Shown one piece after another: positions 57,257-63,741 of a stretch of 64,000 bases of DNA (its first letter is position 1; every line of letters begins with the position of its first letter). The notes beneath the pieces are model-generated. The model was not told the origin of the DNA. It searched no databases and saw only the letters and a program-made list of their open reading frames with translations. Position numbers and translations under genes: made by a program. Source of the DNA: Microbacterium sp. YJN-G (lineage in GTDB: Bacteria; Actinomycetota; Actinomycetes; Actinomycetales; Microbacteriaceae); contig NZ_CP060402.1 of assembly GCF_015040615.1 (NCBI RefSeq), forward strand, positions 3,224,001 through 3,288,000, written 5' to 3'.

Positions 57257-58645
<1,389 letters not shown>

Positions 58646-58774
58646 CGTGCTCCCTCCCGGGCACCGTGGCGCCGGGTCGCGCCATCTGCCCATCTGACCG
58701 TCGGTCTCGCGGTCGTGAGCACAAGCGAATCACGCCCCTCCGACACCCGGTCTCCGACCAACGTAGGAGGCGGG

Positions 58775-58938
58775 TTATCCCCATGCAAGAGGGCCTGTGG
58801 ATAACTCTGTGGAGAGTGTGCGGAGAACTCGGGAGTGTCTGTGCAGAACCCTTGTGGATAAGCCGGTGGAGAGAACTCCATCACCACTGCTTTATCGCGT
58901 TTGACCTGGTTTTCCCGTCGTCCCCATCCTGTGGATGA
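58775..58938. other. Cluster of DnaA boxes upstream of dnaB
   Basis: Two perfect boxes (TGTGGATAA at 58796-58804 and 58853-58861; complement TTATCCACA) and two near-perfect ones (TTATCCCCA at 58775-58783; TGTGGATGA at 58930-58938), with further CTGTGGAGA-like units between. The following stretch (58880-58980) is AT-richer than its surroundings. It lies in the 500-base divergent region between dnaB and the surface-protein gene. Confidence 0.65.
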
Positions 58939-59146
58939 GATTCGACTTAAAGCCCACATTTAAGGTTGACGTGGCAGCGGTCGGGTGTGTAGAACCTGGG
59001 GAGAAGTCAAGCCCGAGATCGACTCGGGCGTGGCGTCGCGAAAGACCCGCTCTCGTCATGTGGACACGCGTCGGGTGCACACGGTATCGTCGCTCCAACT
59101 GGGGTCGCGCGCACGACTGCGTGCGATCCGCCGAGGGAGGGCTCAG

Positions 59147-60181
59147 GTGCGGTTCGCGTCCGTCGACTACCGCAGCGCGAAGATGTGGCTGCTGGGCGGT
59201 TTCGGCGTGCTCGTGTGGCTGGTCTGCGCGGTCCTGCTCGGCGGCTCTTCGGCTCAGGCGAACGAGGGCGACGCTCCGCGTCCGCCCCAGAACGCATCCG
59301 CCACCTCGACCGCACAGGCGCCCGCCGCCCCGGCCGCAGCGCAAAAGGCGGATGCCGCGGTCGCGTCCACCGCCGCCGCGATGCAGGCTCCCGCGAAGTC
59401 GAGCCCGGCTCCGGTGCTCGCACCGGCCACCGTTCAGGCGACCGTTACCGCAGCGGCGAGCACGGTCGCGCCGGTGGCCTCGACTCCCGCTCCGGCGAAG
59501 GCCGCGAACGCACCCGCCAAGGCCGCAGCGACCGTCACCAGCGCGGTGCGCGAATCCACGCCCACCGCAGCACCGGCAGCCACCGCCCAGAACGCAGCCG
59601 CCCAGAACGCAGCGACCGCGCAAAAGGCCGCCAAGGCGGCTCCCGCCGCTGCAGCGCGCACGGCATCCGACGCGGCAGACCGCGTTCTCCCACCGCGCGC
59701 CGATCGCCCCGGCGTTCGGCCCATCGACCCGCGCGCGGACCGCATCGCCGGTTTCCCCGCGAACGTGCCGTCACACGCTGCTGCCGCAGACGTGCACGCG
59801 GATCAGGCCACTGCACGCCCGGTGACCGAGCGCGCCGCGGCGTTCCCCACAGTGCTGCCCGCTCCTCCGGAGGCCACCGCGGTCATGCGCGCGGCTGCCA
59901 CGCAGACCGACGCCTCGGCAACATCCGAATCGGCACCCGCCTCTACATCCGACGGTGACGCAGACGCCGGCGAACCTGCCGGGCACCCTGCACCGGCGGC
60001 ATCCGCTGCGGTTCCGCCGGCAGCATCGGTGGTCGGCGCGTCCGGCTCGGCCACGGCGGGCTTCGTCCCCGCTCATGACGCTTCCGCGCACGCGCGTGAC
60101 CTCGTCATCGTCTCGGCACGTGCCGGCGACGACGTCCTCCCGTCCGCGCCCACCGGCAGCACGGACGTCTCCCCCGACTGA
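59147..60181 (+). CDS. Secreted Ala/Pro-rich protein with C-terminal GSTDVSPD tag
   Basis: A 344-residue protein. GTG at 59147 follows GGGAGG; the N-terminus has basic residues, then a hydrophobic helix (about 14-36) ending SSAQA, a likely signal peptide. The rest is Ala/Pro/Thr/Val low-complexity sequence without cysteines. It ends in PTGSTDVSPD, the same end as the next large gene. The DNA encoding the tag is also alike (GGCAGCACGGACGTCTC). It is on the strand opposite to dnaB and rplI. Function unknown; a cell-surface role is inferred. Confidence 0.7.
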   Translation: MRFASVDYRSAKMWLLGGFGVLVWLVCAVLLGGSSAQANEGDAPRPPQNASATSTAQAPAAPAAAQKADAAVASTAAAMQAPAKSSPAPVLAPATVQATVTAAASTVAPVASTPAPAKAANAPAKAAATVTSAVRESTPTAAPAATAQNAAAQNAATAQKAAKAAPAAAARTASDAADRVLPPRADRPGVRPIDPRADRIAGFPANVPSHAAAADVHADQATARPVTERAAAFPTVLPAPPEATAVMRAAATQTDASATSESAPASTSDGDADAGEPAGHPAPAASAAVPPAASVVGASGSATAGFVPAHDASAHARDLVIVSARAGDDVLPSAPTGSTDVSPD

Positions 60182-60271
60182 TCGGAACACCGGGTGACCA
60201 GTGTGTCGCCCAGACGCCAGAGCGCGCTCAGCGCGCGCCCACTCGCGACATTCCGATCCAGGAGAGCAATC

Positions 60272-60331
60272 ATGATGCGCACGACAGTGCCGCAGGTCCG
60301 CACGGACCGCCGCCGACCCATCACGGCCTGA
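60272..60331 (+). pseudogene. Tiny ORF resembling the start of the chaplin-like gene
   Basis: ATGATGCGCACG... encodes 19 residues (MMRTTVPQVRTDRRRPITA). Its leader (CCAGGAGAG, then CAATCATG) resembles that of the chaplin-like gene at 61673 (TCAGGAGAA, then ACTCTCATG), and both continue MRT-x-V. It may be a decayed start of a second copy, or a real micropeptide. Confidence 0.4.
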
Positions 60332-60526
60332 CGACTTCCGTCGGCGACGCGCAGCCTTCGGGGGAAGGAAATGCGCCGCCGGCGGATCGGATGCCGTGGC
60401 CCGCGCCCAGCGACGTCTCCCTACGTCCTGCGCGATGATCGGCATCCACGCGTCGCCGTGGGACCTCCCTCCTCCACGGCGGCGCACCTCCCGAGCGGTT
60501 CTCGGCTTCCCAGTGCCGACCGCTCT
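60332..60526. other. Intergenic, nothing recognised
   Basis: High-GC sequence with no good ribosome-binding site or coding pattern on either strand. It leads into the strong hairpin at 60527. Confidence 0.4.
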
Positions 60527-60573
60527 GGGCGGGTGTCTCACACCCCCTCAGTGAGACACCCGCCCGTTCTCTT
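60527..60573 (+). terminator. Strong terminator between the two tagged-protein genes
   Basis: GGGCGGGTGTCTCAC (60527-60541) pairs perfectly over 15 bp with GTGAGACACCCGCCC (60551-60565), followed by GTTCTCTTT. Confidence 0.9.
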
Positions 60574-60647
60574 TCCGCACGGTCCCCGCGCTCTAACCCC
60601 TCGGACGCACGAGCGCGAGGGGGCTGGACGCCTCCCCGTCTGCGGGG

Positions 60648-60653
60648 TAAGGT
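60648..60653 (+). promoter_or_regulatory. -10 box, probable leaderless start
   Basis: TAAGGT ends 9 bases before ATG 60663; a CTGGAC -35-like hexamer lies 18 bases further upstream (60624-60629). Confidence 0.45.
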
Positions 60654-60662
60654 CGCGCCCAC

Positions 60663-61589
60663 ATGCTCCGAGTCATCGGGAGGCCGTGGGGAACGATGGA
60701 CGAACCGGTCGAGACCGCCGGACGCCGCCCGGGCGCGGTGTACCTCTGGGGCGCGCTCTTCGTGCTCGCCTGGGCGGCTCTGACGGCCCTTCTCGGCGGC
60801 GGAGACGCCCGCGCGGATGATCAGGGCGCCTCGCCCCTCGGCGAGGCGACATCGCTCATCGCCGAGGCCGCCGACGATGTGGTTGCGCCGGTGATCTCGG
60901 GCACGGCGACGGCGATCGCGGCCTCCGCCGAGCCGACCTCACAGGCAACGATGACGGTCGTCGAGCAGACGACGGATGCCGTCGCGCAGACTCCCGTGAT
61001 CGGCGAGCCGGTCGCCGAGACCTTCGCGTCAGCGAGCGATACTGTGTCGACGACGACTACGGTCATCACGGATGCCGTGGCCGAGACGCCGGTGGCGCCG
61101 GCCATCGAGCCGGTGGCGGACGCACTGCGGGACGTTCCGCTGGTCGGCGACGCACTCGACGAGCTGGGCGCGATCGACCTGGTCGACGAGGTCGCCGCGA
61201 CCGTCGACACCACGATCGCCGAGGTCGCACCCGTCATTGATGCAGCTCCGGTGGTCGAGGCCGTGCAGCCGGCCACCCCGGAGATCGTGGCGGCGCCCGC
61301 GCGGGTCGTGACGACCGTCCCTGCAGCGGATGCCGTGGTCGCGGATGTCGCAGTAGCCAGCATCCGGGGCTGGAGCACGCCCCCTGCGGGCTCCGAACCC
61401 GCAAGCCTGCCGCCCGGAGTGGCGGCATCGAGTACAGCCGCAGCCAGTGGCGGCGGTGGACCTGGGCAGAGCTCCGACAGCCCGCCCGGCTCGCATCTGT
61501 TCGACGGGGTGTCCGCGCTCGCGAGCATCCCCGCTGATTCCGCATTGCCGCCGTCGCCGGCAGGCAGCACCGACGTCTCCCCTGACTGA
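60663..61589 (+). CDS. Secreted Val/Ala-rich protein with C-terminal GSTDVSPD tag
   Basis: A 308-residue protein. A hydrophobic helix (about 24-44, VYLWGALFVLAWAALTALLG core) ending DARA is a likely signal peptide. The body is Val/Ala/Thr/Pro/Glu-rich (for example AVAQTPVIGEPVAETF and VAETPVAPAIEPVAD), with imperfect short repeats of P-V-x-E/D. It ends in PAGSTDVSPD, as does the previous gene. A GGGGPGQSS stretch precedes the tail. It is followed 83 bases later by the chaplin-like gene. ATG 60663 is favoured by the -10 box; ATG 60696 is an alternative. Function unknown. Confidence 0.7.
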   Translation: MLRVIGRPWGTMDEPVETAGRRPGAVYLWGALFVLAWAALTALLGGGDARADDQGASPLGEATSLIAEAADDVVAPVISGTATAIAASAEPTSQATMTVVEQTTDAVAQTPVIGEPVAETFASASDTVSTTTTVITDAVAETPVAPAIEPVADALRDVPLVGDALDELGAIDLVDEVAATVDTTIAEVAPVIDAAPVVEAVQPATPEIVAAPARVVTTVPAADAVVADVAVASIRGWSTPPAGSEPASLPPGVAASSTAAASGGGGPGQSSDSPPGSHLFDGVSALASIPADSALPPSPAGSTDVSPD

Positions 61590-61672
61590 CGAGAGGGCGG
61601 CCGATCCTGCATCGGCAAGCCCGACCGCACGACCGTGCGGTCTTCATCTCGTACAGATCAGGAGAAACTCTC

Positions 61673-63121
61673 ATGCGCACTATCGTCAAGCACGCCCTCT
61701 GGGGCGCGCTCATCGCCGGCGGCGTATCGCTGCTCGGCGCGACGGCCGCGAACGCGGCCGAAACGAACGGAGACGACGGTCTCCTCTCCGGCACGCAGGT
61801 CGTCGCCCCGATCACGGCACCCGTCGAGGTCAGCGACAATTCCCTGTCGCTGCTCGGAGACAGCTTCGCCGACTCGTCGGCGGATGCTGACCCGGCCCCG
61901 GCTCCCGAGACCGACGCTCAGACGAGCGGCGTCGACGGAACCGCCTCGGGTACTCAGGTCGTGGCGGATGCCGACGCACCGGTCACCGTGACCGACAACA
62001 GCGTCGCCGTGCTGGGAACGTCCAGCACTGACGGCGACAGCACGGCACCTGCGACGTCCGAAGACGGCACCACCGACGCCAGCACCACCGGCAGCGATGG
62101 AACCGCCTCCGGCACGCAGGCGGTCGCGGATGCCGACGCACCGGTCACCGTGACCGACAACAGCGTCGCCGTGCTGGGCACGTCCAGCACCGACGGCGAC
62201 AGCACGGCATCTGCGACGTCCGAAGACGGAACCAACGACGCCACCACTGACGGCGCTGACGGCATCGCCTCCGGCACCCAGGTGCTCGCACCGACCGACG
62301 CACCGATCACCGTGACCGACAACAGCGTCGCCGTGCTGGGCACGTCCAGCACGGGCGGCGACAGCACCGCCACCGCGGCATCCGAAGACGGAACCGATTA
62401 CGCCAGCACCAGCGGCACCGACGGTATCGCCTCGGGCACCCAGGTGCTCGCACCGGCCGACGCACCCGTCACCGTGACCGACAACAGCGTCGCCGTGCTG
62501 GGCACGTCCAGCACGGACGGCGACACGACCGCCCCGGCGGAGCCGACCGACGTATCCACGGACGGGCTCACCGACGGGCTCACCGAGGGTCTCACGGACG
62601 GCGAGGGAGCCCTCTTCGGCTTCCCGCTGCTCGCCCGGGCCGCGGTGGACGTGACCGGTGACTCGGACGGCATCTCGGGTGCACTCACGTTCTCGGGCGA
62701 CTCCTTCGCGATCGACGCGGAGGGGACGACGGAGACAGCAGATGGTGAGTCCACGACCGGCGACGGCATGCTGTTCCGCACCGCGCGGCTGATGTTCGCC
62801 GCGGCGTCGGAGCCGGCCGAGGTCGGAAGCGATGTTGTCGTCGACGGCAGCGTCAGCGGCGACCCGGCTCCGCAGCCGCGGACCGAGCCGGCGGCGGGTG
62901 TCGATGAGATCCCTGCCACCGACGTGGTGACCTCGCCGAGCGTGATTGCCTCGGCATCCGCTGTCCTGGACACGCGCACGACTGGCTCGAACGCCACGGG
63001 CTCATCCGCCCTGGCGGCGAGCGTCCTGGCGGCGACCGGCGGTGATTCGGTGGCGGCGCTGGGCCTGCTCGCGGGCCTGATGCTGCTGAGCGGCGGCGCT
63101 CTGGTCGCCCGCATCGTCTGA
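61673..63121 (+). CDS. Chaplin-like repeat surface protein with LAATG sorting-type C-terminus
   Basis: A 482-residue exported protein. Signal peptide about 1-28 (ends ANA-AE). Five chaplin-like units of about 27 residues start at residues 35, 88, 142, 196 and 250; each reads D-G-x-x-SGTQ-x-V-x-(6)-P-[VI]-x-V-x-D-N-S-[VL]-x-[VL]-L-G. Streptomyces chaplins have the same pattern (SGN-x-[VQ]...PV-x-V-C-G-N-[ST]-V-x-V-I-G) but with two Cys, absent here. Linkers are Ser/Thr/Asp/Gly-rich. Near the end LAATG (452-456) precedes a hydrophobic helix and Arg, like class E sortase substrates and the long chaplins ChpA-C. It may form an amyloid-like surface layer. No sortase is in the window. Confidence 0.7.
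   Translation: MRTIVKHALWGALIAGGVSLLGATAANAAETNGDDGLLSGTQVVAPITAPVEVSDNSLSLLGDSFADSSADADPAPAPETDAQTSGVDGTASGTQVVADADAPVTVTDNSVAVLGTSSTDGDSTAPATSEDGTTDASTTGSDGTASGTQAVADADAPVTVTDNSVAVLGTSSTDGDSTASATSEDGTNDATTDGADGIASGTQVLAPTDAPITVTDNSVAVLGTSSTGGDSTATAASEDGTDYASTSGTDGIASGTQVLAPADAPVTVTDNSVAVLGTSSTDGDTTAPAEPTDVSTDGLTDGLTEGLTDGEGALFGFPLLARAAVDVTGDSDGISGALTFSGDSFAIDAEGTTETADGESTTGDGMLFRTARLMFAAASEPAEVGSDVVVDGSVSGDPAPQPRTEPAAGVDEIPATDVVTSPSVIASASAVLDTRTTGSNATGSSALAASVLAATGGDSVAALGLLAGLMLLSGGALVARIV
61934..62581 (+). repeat. Four tandem 162-bp repeats within the chaplin-like gene
   Basis: The unit starts at 61934, 62096, 62258 and 62420, i.e. every 162 bases (54 codons). The coding cores share CCGTGACCGACAACAGCGTC. 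A more distant fifth unit precedes them (from about 61775). Such direct repeats can change in number by recombination. Confidence 0.85.
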
Positions 63122-63212
63122 TGCAGACGAGAGCGGCGGGTGCGGCTCAGTGCCGCATCCGCCGCCTCGGCGCGCTCGGGCGCGGCATCCGGACTCGCCG
63201 CAGACGCGAGAA

Positions 63213-63240
63213 CGCCCCGGGATCCGCAGATCCCGGGGCG
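63213..63240 (-). terminator. Terminator of the rplI transcript
   Basis: CGCCCCGGGATC pairs perfectly with GATCCCGGGGCG across a 4-base loop, 49 bases beyond the rplI stop. It indicates that rplI is no longer co-transcribed with dnaB here. Confidence 0.9.
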
Positions 63241-63264
63241 TCCTTCGACAGGCTCAGGAACCCA
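63241..63264 (+). repeat. Dispersed repeat A
   Basis: TCCTTCGACAGGCTCAGGAA followed by CCCA, directly beside the rplI terminator; two bases differ from the copy at 13613. Confidence 0.85.
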
Positions 63265-63288
63265 TACAGGTTCAGAAGCCCATCGGAA

Positions 63289-63741
63289 TCACTTGGCGGC
63301 GACCACCTGGAGGGTGATCACGGCGGTGACGTCGTCGTGCAGACGGACGGTCGCCTCGTGCTCGCCGACCGACTTGATCGGGGCGGCGAAGTGCACCTTG
63401 CGCTTGTCGATGGAGCCCAGCTCGGCGGCGGCGACAGCGTCGGCCACGTCGGCCGTCTTCACCGAGCCGAACAGGCGACCCTCGGCACCGGCCTTGACGG
63501 CCAGGCGCACCTTGGTGCCCTCGAGCTTCGCCTTGAGGGCGTTCGCCTCGTCGAGGTCGTGGATCGCACGCGCCTTGCGGGCGGCCTGGATCGACTCGAC
63601 CTGCTTGGCGCCACCACGGGTCCACGCGACAGCGAAGCCCTGGGGGATGAGGTAGTTGCGGGCGTACCCGTTCTTGACCTCGATGACGTCACCGGCGCTT
63701 CCGAGCCCGGCGACCTCGTTCGTGAGAATCAGCTTTGCCAT
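63289..63741 (-). CDS. rplI: 50S ribosomal protein L9
   Basis: A 150-residue bL9: the N-terminal RNA-binding domain ([34 protein letters not shown], core [14 protein letters not shown] at about 22-35), long connecting helix, and C-terminal domain ending in ITLQVVAAK. It binds 23S rRNA at the L1 base. It follows rpsR 11 bases downstream. In related genomes dnaB comes next; here the terminator and the surface-protein genes intervene. Confidence 0.97.

Follow-up and report, generated by a model that had tools for sequence, protein, structure and literature searches.

Gene content of the dnaB-rplI locus

The window, by which we mean the entire 64,000-nucleotide stretch of the Microbacterium sp. 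YJN-G genome that was analysed, contains two consecutive units between dnaB and rplI. Each comprises a gene for a low-complexity protein, here called the partner, followed by a predicted RNA element; the second unit continues into a chaplin-repeat surface protein gene, and the first (58985-60331) has a 19-aa open reading frame (ORF) replacing the chaplin. The features on which the account below draws are as follows.

57257..58693, reverse strand: dnaB, left neighbour (Pfam)
58985..60181, forward strand: partner gene 1, a second copy, up to 398 aa (start perhaps at 59183), ending STDVSPD-stop (ORF; repeat family D6)
60164..60271, forward strand: the RNA element again, as a second copy following partner gene 1 (fold and sequence comparison)
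60272..60331, forward strand: 19-aa ORF (MMRTTVPQVRTDRRRPITA, then stop) in the chaplin's place (ORF reading)
60527..60565, forward strand: 15-bp inverted repeat with a C/T-rich tail, terminator-like, between units 1 and 2 (by eye; absent from the consensus scan)
60663..61589, forward strand: partner gene 2, 308 aa (possible alternative start at 60696), ending STDVSPD-stop (ORF; secreted, by eye)
61536..61589, forward strand: codons of the conserved 17-residue partner end plus stop (comparison of loci)
61572..61672, forward strand: RNA element (predicted fold, z -5.4)
61572-61594 with 61647-61670: helix P1, containing the partner stop codon (61587-61589) and part of the chaplin Shine-Dalgarno (SD) sequence (61660-61664) (predicted fold)
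61595-61598 with 61619-61622: helix P1b (predicted fold)
61600-61605 with 61611-61616: helix P2 (predicted fold)
61623-61630 with 61635-61642: helix P3 (predicted fold)
61673..63121, forward strand: chaplin-repeat surface protein, 482 aa (ORF, Pfam, repeat analysis)
about 61673-61759, forward strand: signal peptide of the chaplin protein (by eye)
61763..62535, forward strand: five chaplin units with a 53/54-residue period (repeat families D1 and D2; Pfam)
63026..63040, forward strand: LAATG, a class E-type sorting motif (read in the ORF; class E sortase elsewhere in the genome)
63289..63741, reverse strand: rplI, right neighbour (Pfam)
G000:C1:3359060-3359455, about 72 kb from the chaplin: class E sortase (NF033747, PF04203)

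A cysteine-less chaplin family member

The 482-aa product consists of a signal peptide, five repeat units each beginning with SGTQ, a linker, the LAATG motif and a membrane segment, the signal peptide and the membrane segment being recognized by eye. A sequence-only reading of this ORF had proposed a cysteine-free chaplin with five units, four of them in exact 54-residue register, and a sorting-type end in which LAATG is followed by a hydrophobic helix and one Arg. All of this is borne out: the units are spaced by 159, 162, 162 and 162 nt, which puts the last four in exact register, the long copies share 81-85% DNA identity with the reference copy, a hydrophobic segment with a single Arg lies directly after LAATG, and there is not one Cys in the 482 residues. 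That reading had staked itself on a profile match to chaplins and on a class E sortase in the genome, and both are found. The PF03777 (ChpA-C) profile matches the protein in five stretches with an E value of 8.3e-17 and 61.2 bits against a curated cutoff of 21, and no other ORF of the genome matches it. The sole PF04203 sortase match in the genome belongs to class E (NF033747, 220.5 bits; cutoff, 160); by eye, it adjoins a glutamine amidotransferase-type ORF and an ORF with PASTA-type repeats. An LAxTG DNA pattern was discarded as a count of sortase substrates, being too unspecific (69 matches in the genome against 28 for the reversed control).

Chaplin domains have two cysteines each, with an exception noted in ChpB, according to a passage in a paper on these proteins (PMC13251363). 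Judged from its sequence, the window protein is thus a cysteine-less member of the PF03777 family, not a canonical Streptomyces chaplin. Like Streptomyces ChpA-C, it has an export signal, chaplin units, an LAxTG end and a class E sortase encoded in the same genome. It differs from them in having five units (4 to 12 in relatives) instead of two, in lacking cysteines, in having mostly DN for GN in its repeats and in being paired with a low-complexity partner gene. By eye, the repeat core reads mostly DNS in the window protein versus mostly GN in relatives from the genus. An amyloid-like coat, which the sequence-only reading had also suggested, is at most a candidate role: AlphaFold, run on the chaplin alignment, gave short strands in each repeat, but the model (mean pLDDT, 46.8) is too weak to bear on it.

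By itself the chaplin is ordinary, since proteins of this kind abound in Microbacterium and the family to which it belongs, and the rarity that the sequence-only reading implied does not hold. Searches of genus and family genomes with a family alignment of 16 rows (A1) gave matches at E <= 1e-3 in 151/198 genus genomes, some through the linker or membrane tail alone, and in 119/198 at E <= 1e-30; at the looser threshold, 125/249 family genomes match, tail-only matches included. PF03777 itself matched in 22 of 58 genomes searched, that of the window included, in 23/297 genomes of the order and in 67/296 of the class. A passage in a 2013 review (PMC4255298) already lists chaplin-like proteins in the nonsporulating Arthrobacter chlorophenolicus, with attachment guessed as their role. 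Among 70 named relatives (chaplins with a stop codon in the DNA examined), the number of units per protein ranges from 4 to 12, Cys is absent after residue 35 in 68, and L[APS]xTG occurs near the C terminus in 65, in 64 of them as LAxTG. The linker between repeats and LAxTG is of a collagen-like GTP type in the chaplin of locus L046, where PF01391 matches, and by eye of a collagen-like GTP or a PGTD type in that of L055 and others.

A regular partner gene with a conserved C-terminal end

The product of partner gene 2 is rich in Ala, Val, Thr and Pro, of low complexity, and provided with an export-type N terminus as judged by eye; searches of Pfam and NCBIfam at E <= 1 gave nothing for it. A comparable ORF, rich in the same residues, of export type and ending in DVSPD-stop or a near variant, lies just upstream of the chaplin on the same strand in the window and in all 19 same-genus relatives for which a long stretch was available. 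In the 19 same-genus loci, each covered by 5.5 to 11 kb, dnaB is always in the stretch and rplI in 16 (missing at L042, L053 and L054); the stretch of L060, from another family, has neither.

We extended the comparison to 119 loci, comprising 80 from the genus (the window and 79 others), 38 from 28 other genera of the family, and L060. The own-genus loci were picked from the better A1 matches beginning at profile position 1 and those of other genera, one or two per genus, from matches beginning at positions 1 to 3; matches without an N terminus and loci L151-L180 were left out. An upstream ORF ending in P-D, or P-G in two loci, is present 67 to 215 nt before the chaplin in all 119, i.e., in 81/81 (window, 79 own-genus loci and L060) and 38/38 from other genera. 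In a set of 80 named loci that overlaps the unnamed one and is mostly from Microbacterium, with some from Agromyces, Leucobacter, Curtobacterium and Agreia, 79 fit the partner-end expression and the 80th ends in TDVCPD. Farther afield, six of ten loci from other families of the order have a P-D or P-G end directly upstream; three others of the ten (L229, L235 and L239) had no chaplin start by the expression used. In other families, the terminal residues are PGSSPD or PGSRPD, and L060 has DSRPD-stop.

The partner is about 300 to 600 aa long, and its C-terminal consensus is D-D-x-L-P-x-S-P-x-x-x-T-D-V-S-P-D-stop. Residues are kept well upstream of the last codons (D at -17 in 76/80, P at -13 in 75/80 and P at -10 in 67/80), and P-13 recurs in 35/38 loci of other genera. 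Since the codons vary (P-13 is encoded by CCG in 48, CCC in 18, CCT in 5 and CCA in 4), the constraint on this part of the end, upstream of the helix described below, acts at the protein level. An exact DNA pattern for the partner end, GACGTCTCNCCNGACTGA, occurs in 105/198 genus genomes, and its reversed control in 0/198.

A predicted helix joins the partner end to the chaplin SD sequence

In the window, the end of partner gene 2, GAC GTC TCC CCT GAC TGA, is complementary to the SD region of the chaplin gene. The predicted fold (z -5.4; 0/200 shuffles as stable) joins the two in P1, which has bulges here, the Ser codon being TCC and not TCT, and encloses two hairpins. We scored pairing of the five SD bases with the last 5 codons, the stop codon and 3 further nt, and required a mean probability above 0.5; such pairing is predicted in 116/119 loci (79/80 of the genus, 36/38 of other genera and L060), with L132, L192 and L200 below 0.5. 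At control gene junctions, a small set obtained with a crude gene caller, 0/14 SD sequences pair with the upstream ORF end; 8/14 are paired with something, so in this GC-rich DNA an SD sequence is often masked in one way or another. Folding z scores lie below -2 in 79/80 loci of the genus (median, -4.65) and 38/38 of other genera (median, -4.35), as against 10/80 and 3/38 control stretches inside the partner ORF. Duplex energies average -23.1 kcal/mol, whereas shuffles give -12.5 and gene segments taken from farther upstream -11.6 to -15.2.

The interior of the element varies greatly between clades, both in length and in sequence, and does not align across them. RNAalifold on a 20-sequence MAFFT cross-clade alignment (A2) gave three local pairs and did not recover P1; P1 is visible in single folds, in one clade alignment or by comparison of its arms. 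Rfam searches of 58600-63400 and 60182-60662 gave nothing at gathering score; the best subthreshold match, CcsR1 at 60423-60490 (E 0.0094; 20.8 versus 65.3 bits), was taken as chance. A consensus scan for promoters and terminators returned no useful site, its two results being a weak promoter-like one and a terminator-like one.

Evidence for selection on the RNA pairing

Because simple counts are inflated by related rows, we relied on three tests, namely, arm swaps between sisters, unlike representatives and codons. In 59 disjoint closest pairs of loci that differ in both arms of the helix, each locus's own arms paired better in 38, swapped arms in 12, with 9 ties (p 1.5e-4), so that 12/59 point in the opposite direction and several of the closest pairs tie; where both members came from other genera, own arms won 17 to 0. 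Among 64 representatives with partner similarity below 0.35, 0 of 20,000 permutations reached the observed sum of duplex energies.

The third test concerns the last Pro codon of the partner, which is CCT or CCC in 119/119 loci and never CCG or CCA. Elsewhere in these genes, Pro is most often encoded by CCG (1093/2367 and 517/1114), which is also in use for the two prolines outside the helix, at -13 and -10. Within the genus, the choice of Ser codon tends to match the SD sequence: a GGGGA SD goes with TCC in 16/17 loci, and TCT goes with GGAGA in 37, the combination of TCC with GGAGA being found in six, including the window. In the best duplexes, which favour pairs by construction, position -7 is UA in 66, CG in 36 and GC in 4 of 108, and positions +3 to +8, counted from the first base of the stop codon, show all four Watson-Crick types.

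In an alignment of one clade (27 rows), 98.2% of cells pair, against 24-42% for slid versions. P2 has compensatory change, with 19/162 cells altered on both sides; P1 has none in this clade. Of the five measures on the whole structure, two exceed the shuffles by little: both-side changes (14/500) and further pair types (124/500).

Variants of the module

Three of the 105 genomes with the DNA pattern have no A1 match. The match in one, G146, has a CCG codon and neither dnaB nor rplI nearby and was taken as chance. The other two, G065 and G181, keep partner and element and have a tiny ORF instead of the chaplin, as does unit 1 of the window; partner and chaplin are therefore not always gained and lost together. 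The sequence after the 19-aa ORF is partly common to the loci of G065 (L359) and G181 (L360), namely, TGACGACTTCCG, an CCTTCGGGGGAAGG-like stretch and GATCGGATGCC, and the motif after the tiny ORFs occurs in 5/198 genomes. The window and L359 also share the hairpin and the terminator-like repeat; in L360, the best fold does not pair the SD sequence with the ORF end. The tiny ORF at this place in G065 and G181 and the common downstream sequence weaken the view that the 19-aa ORF is a mere chaplin remnant, and 60164-60565 is perhaps a small regulatory RNA or a gene for a tiny protein.

At a locus in G068 (L362), the partner end, the element, a chaplin-type signal peptide and LATTG are retained around a different repeat body that PF03777 does not match. 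Given this repeat body and the tiny ORFs of G065 and G181, the lock at the partner end may serve genes beyond chaplins. Twelve chaplin-less genomes were inspected in the stretch behind rplI. An ORF ending in P-D, P-G or P-N is missing there from 11, including that of L374, where dnaB was not in reach; the ORF found in the remaining one (L375) ends in ENPG-stop and was judged unrelated by its end alone.

Two further arrangements were seen. In L356, L357 and L358 (G152, G207 and G186), partner ends occur twice at a distance of about 1.5 kb; the first is TTDVSPD-stop, and a scripted search of the 170 nt following it gave no start with an SD sequence. At 3720-3840 of L364 (G014), a partner end and an SD-masking helix precede an ORF (MRLHTRLHATGRASQG and onward) unlike a chaplin start.

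Translational coupling as the most probable explanation

The gene pair, the conserved partner end, the predicted helix and the compensatory change are results of computation on the loci compared. Stems that mask the SD sequence of a downstream gene are known from classical translational coupling in operons, for instance, in galT-galK and rplJ-rplL, where upstream translation unmasks the downstream start. A ribosome terminating on a UGA that lies within the masking strand would, given the size of its footprint, have to melt that strand, and translational coupling is therefore the best reading. We accordingly propose, with a probability of roughly 80%, that the chaplin gene is the second of a translation-coupled pair and that translation of the partner to its stop codon makes the ribosome-binding site of the chaplin accessible. 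Within the transcript, the chaplin SD region would be paired with the last codons and stop of the partner, and the two hairpins within P1 would hold the helix together, such that free ribosomes would hardly initiate the chaplin. A ribosome reaching the partner UGA would melt the 5' strand and free the SD sequence, and the conserved partner end may in addition slow the ribosome near the stop. The wall-anchored repeat protein would in this way be made only upon full translation of the secreted partner. As in galT-galK and rplJ-rplL, upstream translation would unmask the downstream start; the present case differs from them in its occurrence in several families of one order and in having a conserved peptide end encoded on the masking strand.

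An explanation from the protein side would make the partner end a working part of the secreted protein, one that binds chaplin units, for example, with the RNA pairing a by-product of fixed codons. Conservation of the C terminus at the protein level and the usual company of partner and chaplin gene agree with it. Yet fixed codons would hardly account for the avoidance of CCG and CCA at the proline inside the helix and not at P-13 or P-10, nor for the bases after the stop codon, which covary with the SD side. The end also differs in other families (PGSSPD or PGSRPD), and at L232, one of the ten loci from other families of the order, it is FPA-stop, yet by eye TTCCCC still faces GGGGAA; we consider this explanation unlikely. 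An attenuator, riboswitch or processing site acting independently of partner translation is improbable. The branched three-way shape of the element, which buries the SD sequence, would be in keeping with such a device, but no Rfam family matches at gathering score, the 5' strand consists of translated codons and a stop, and the interior varies between clades in a way that a ligand pocket would not. That an ordinary chaplin gene is merely preceded by a chance GC-rich hairpin is hardly credible: GC-rich DNA folds easily, as the paired control SD sequences attest, but none of these pair with an upstream ORF end, and the covariation in sister swaps, the permutation test and the codon bias all contradict it.

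Relationship to SecM-like monitoring systems

Translational coupling could extend to a gate of the SecM type, in which the partner would be a monitoring substrate whose nascent end pauses the ribosome at the stop codon, so that export tunes the opening of the SD sequence. For SecM, a section of PMC7897499 describes an intergenic stem that holds the SD sequence of the next gene and is disturbed by a stalled ribosome; according to part of PMC10987492, known peptides with Pro before the stop arrest the ribosome while the stop codon occupies the A site. The layout of the module fits: there is an export signal (by eye), a long and poorly conserved passenger, a conserved end more than 40 residues from the signal and, by prediction and covariation, an SD sequence of the next gene in an intergenic stem. 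Moreover, conservation at the protein level reaches residue -17, where the RNA offers no explanation for it. On the other side, the next gene encodes a chaplin protein and not a Sec or YidC component, the last partner residue is Asp and not Pro, the protein end may act outside the cell, and coupling would work without arrest. We regard the SecM-like extension as possible but doubtful.

Judged by what parts of PMC7897499 and PMC10987492 relate of SecM, ApcA, ApdA and ApdP, the module shares with all four an exported upstream protein with a conserved C terminus and with SecM the intergenic stem over the next SD sequence. It departs from them in that the next gene specifies a wall-anchored surface protein instead of Sec or YidC machinery, the partner has about 300 to 600 aa versus 80 to 200, and the stop codon itself lies within the predicted stem. 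The more specific picture, a surface assembly switch in much of the order in which an SPD-stop arrest end senses export of the partner and the SD helix gates a possibly amyloid-forming repeat protein, is speculative and, we think, probably not correct as a whole. Among the titles and abstracts listed in the literature searches, no gate of the SecM type was seen to act on a surface structure in place of the export machinery.

Implications for chaplins in simple rods

What is new here is the probably coupled partner-chaplin module, the chaplin itself belonging to a known family. Neither the gene pair nor the RNA is described in the available portions of the literature searched on chaplins, translational coupling and arrest peptides. 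The passage on Arthrobacter chlorophenolicus in PMC4255298 likewise concerns a chaplin-like gene in a genus of simple rod-coccus form, and in contrast to the present module it mentions no partner gene or RNA element. At the dnaB-rplI site, chaplins of simple rods regularly stand next to a gene for a secreted partner and are predicted to be under a translational lock, which suggests that masking stems with conserved peptide ends extend beyond Sec genes. This offers a testable handle on chaplins in simple rods, consisting of the partner, the SD helix and the silent codons at the partner end.
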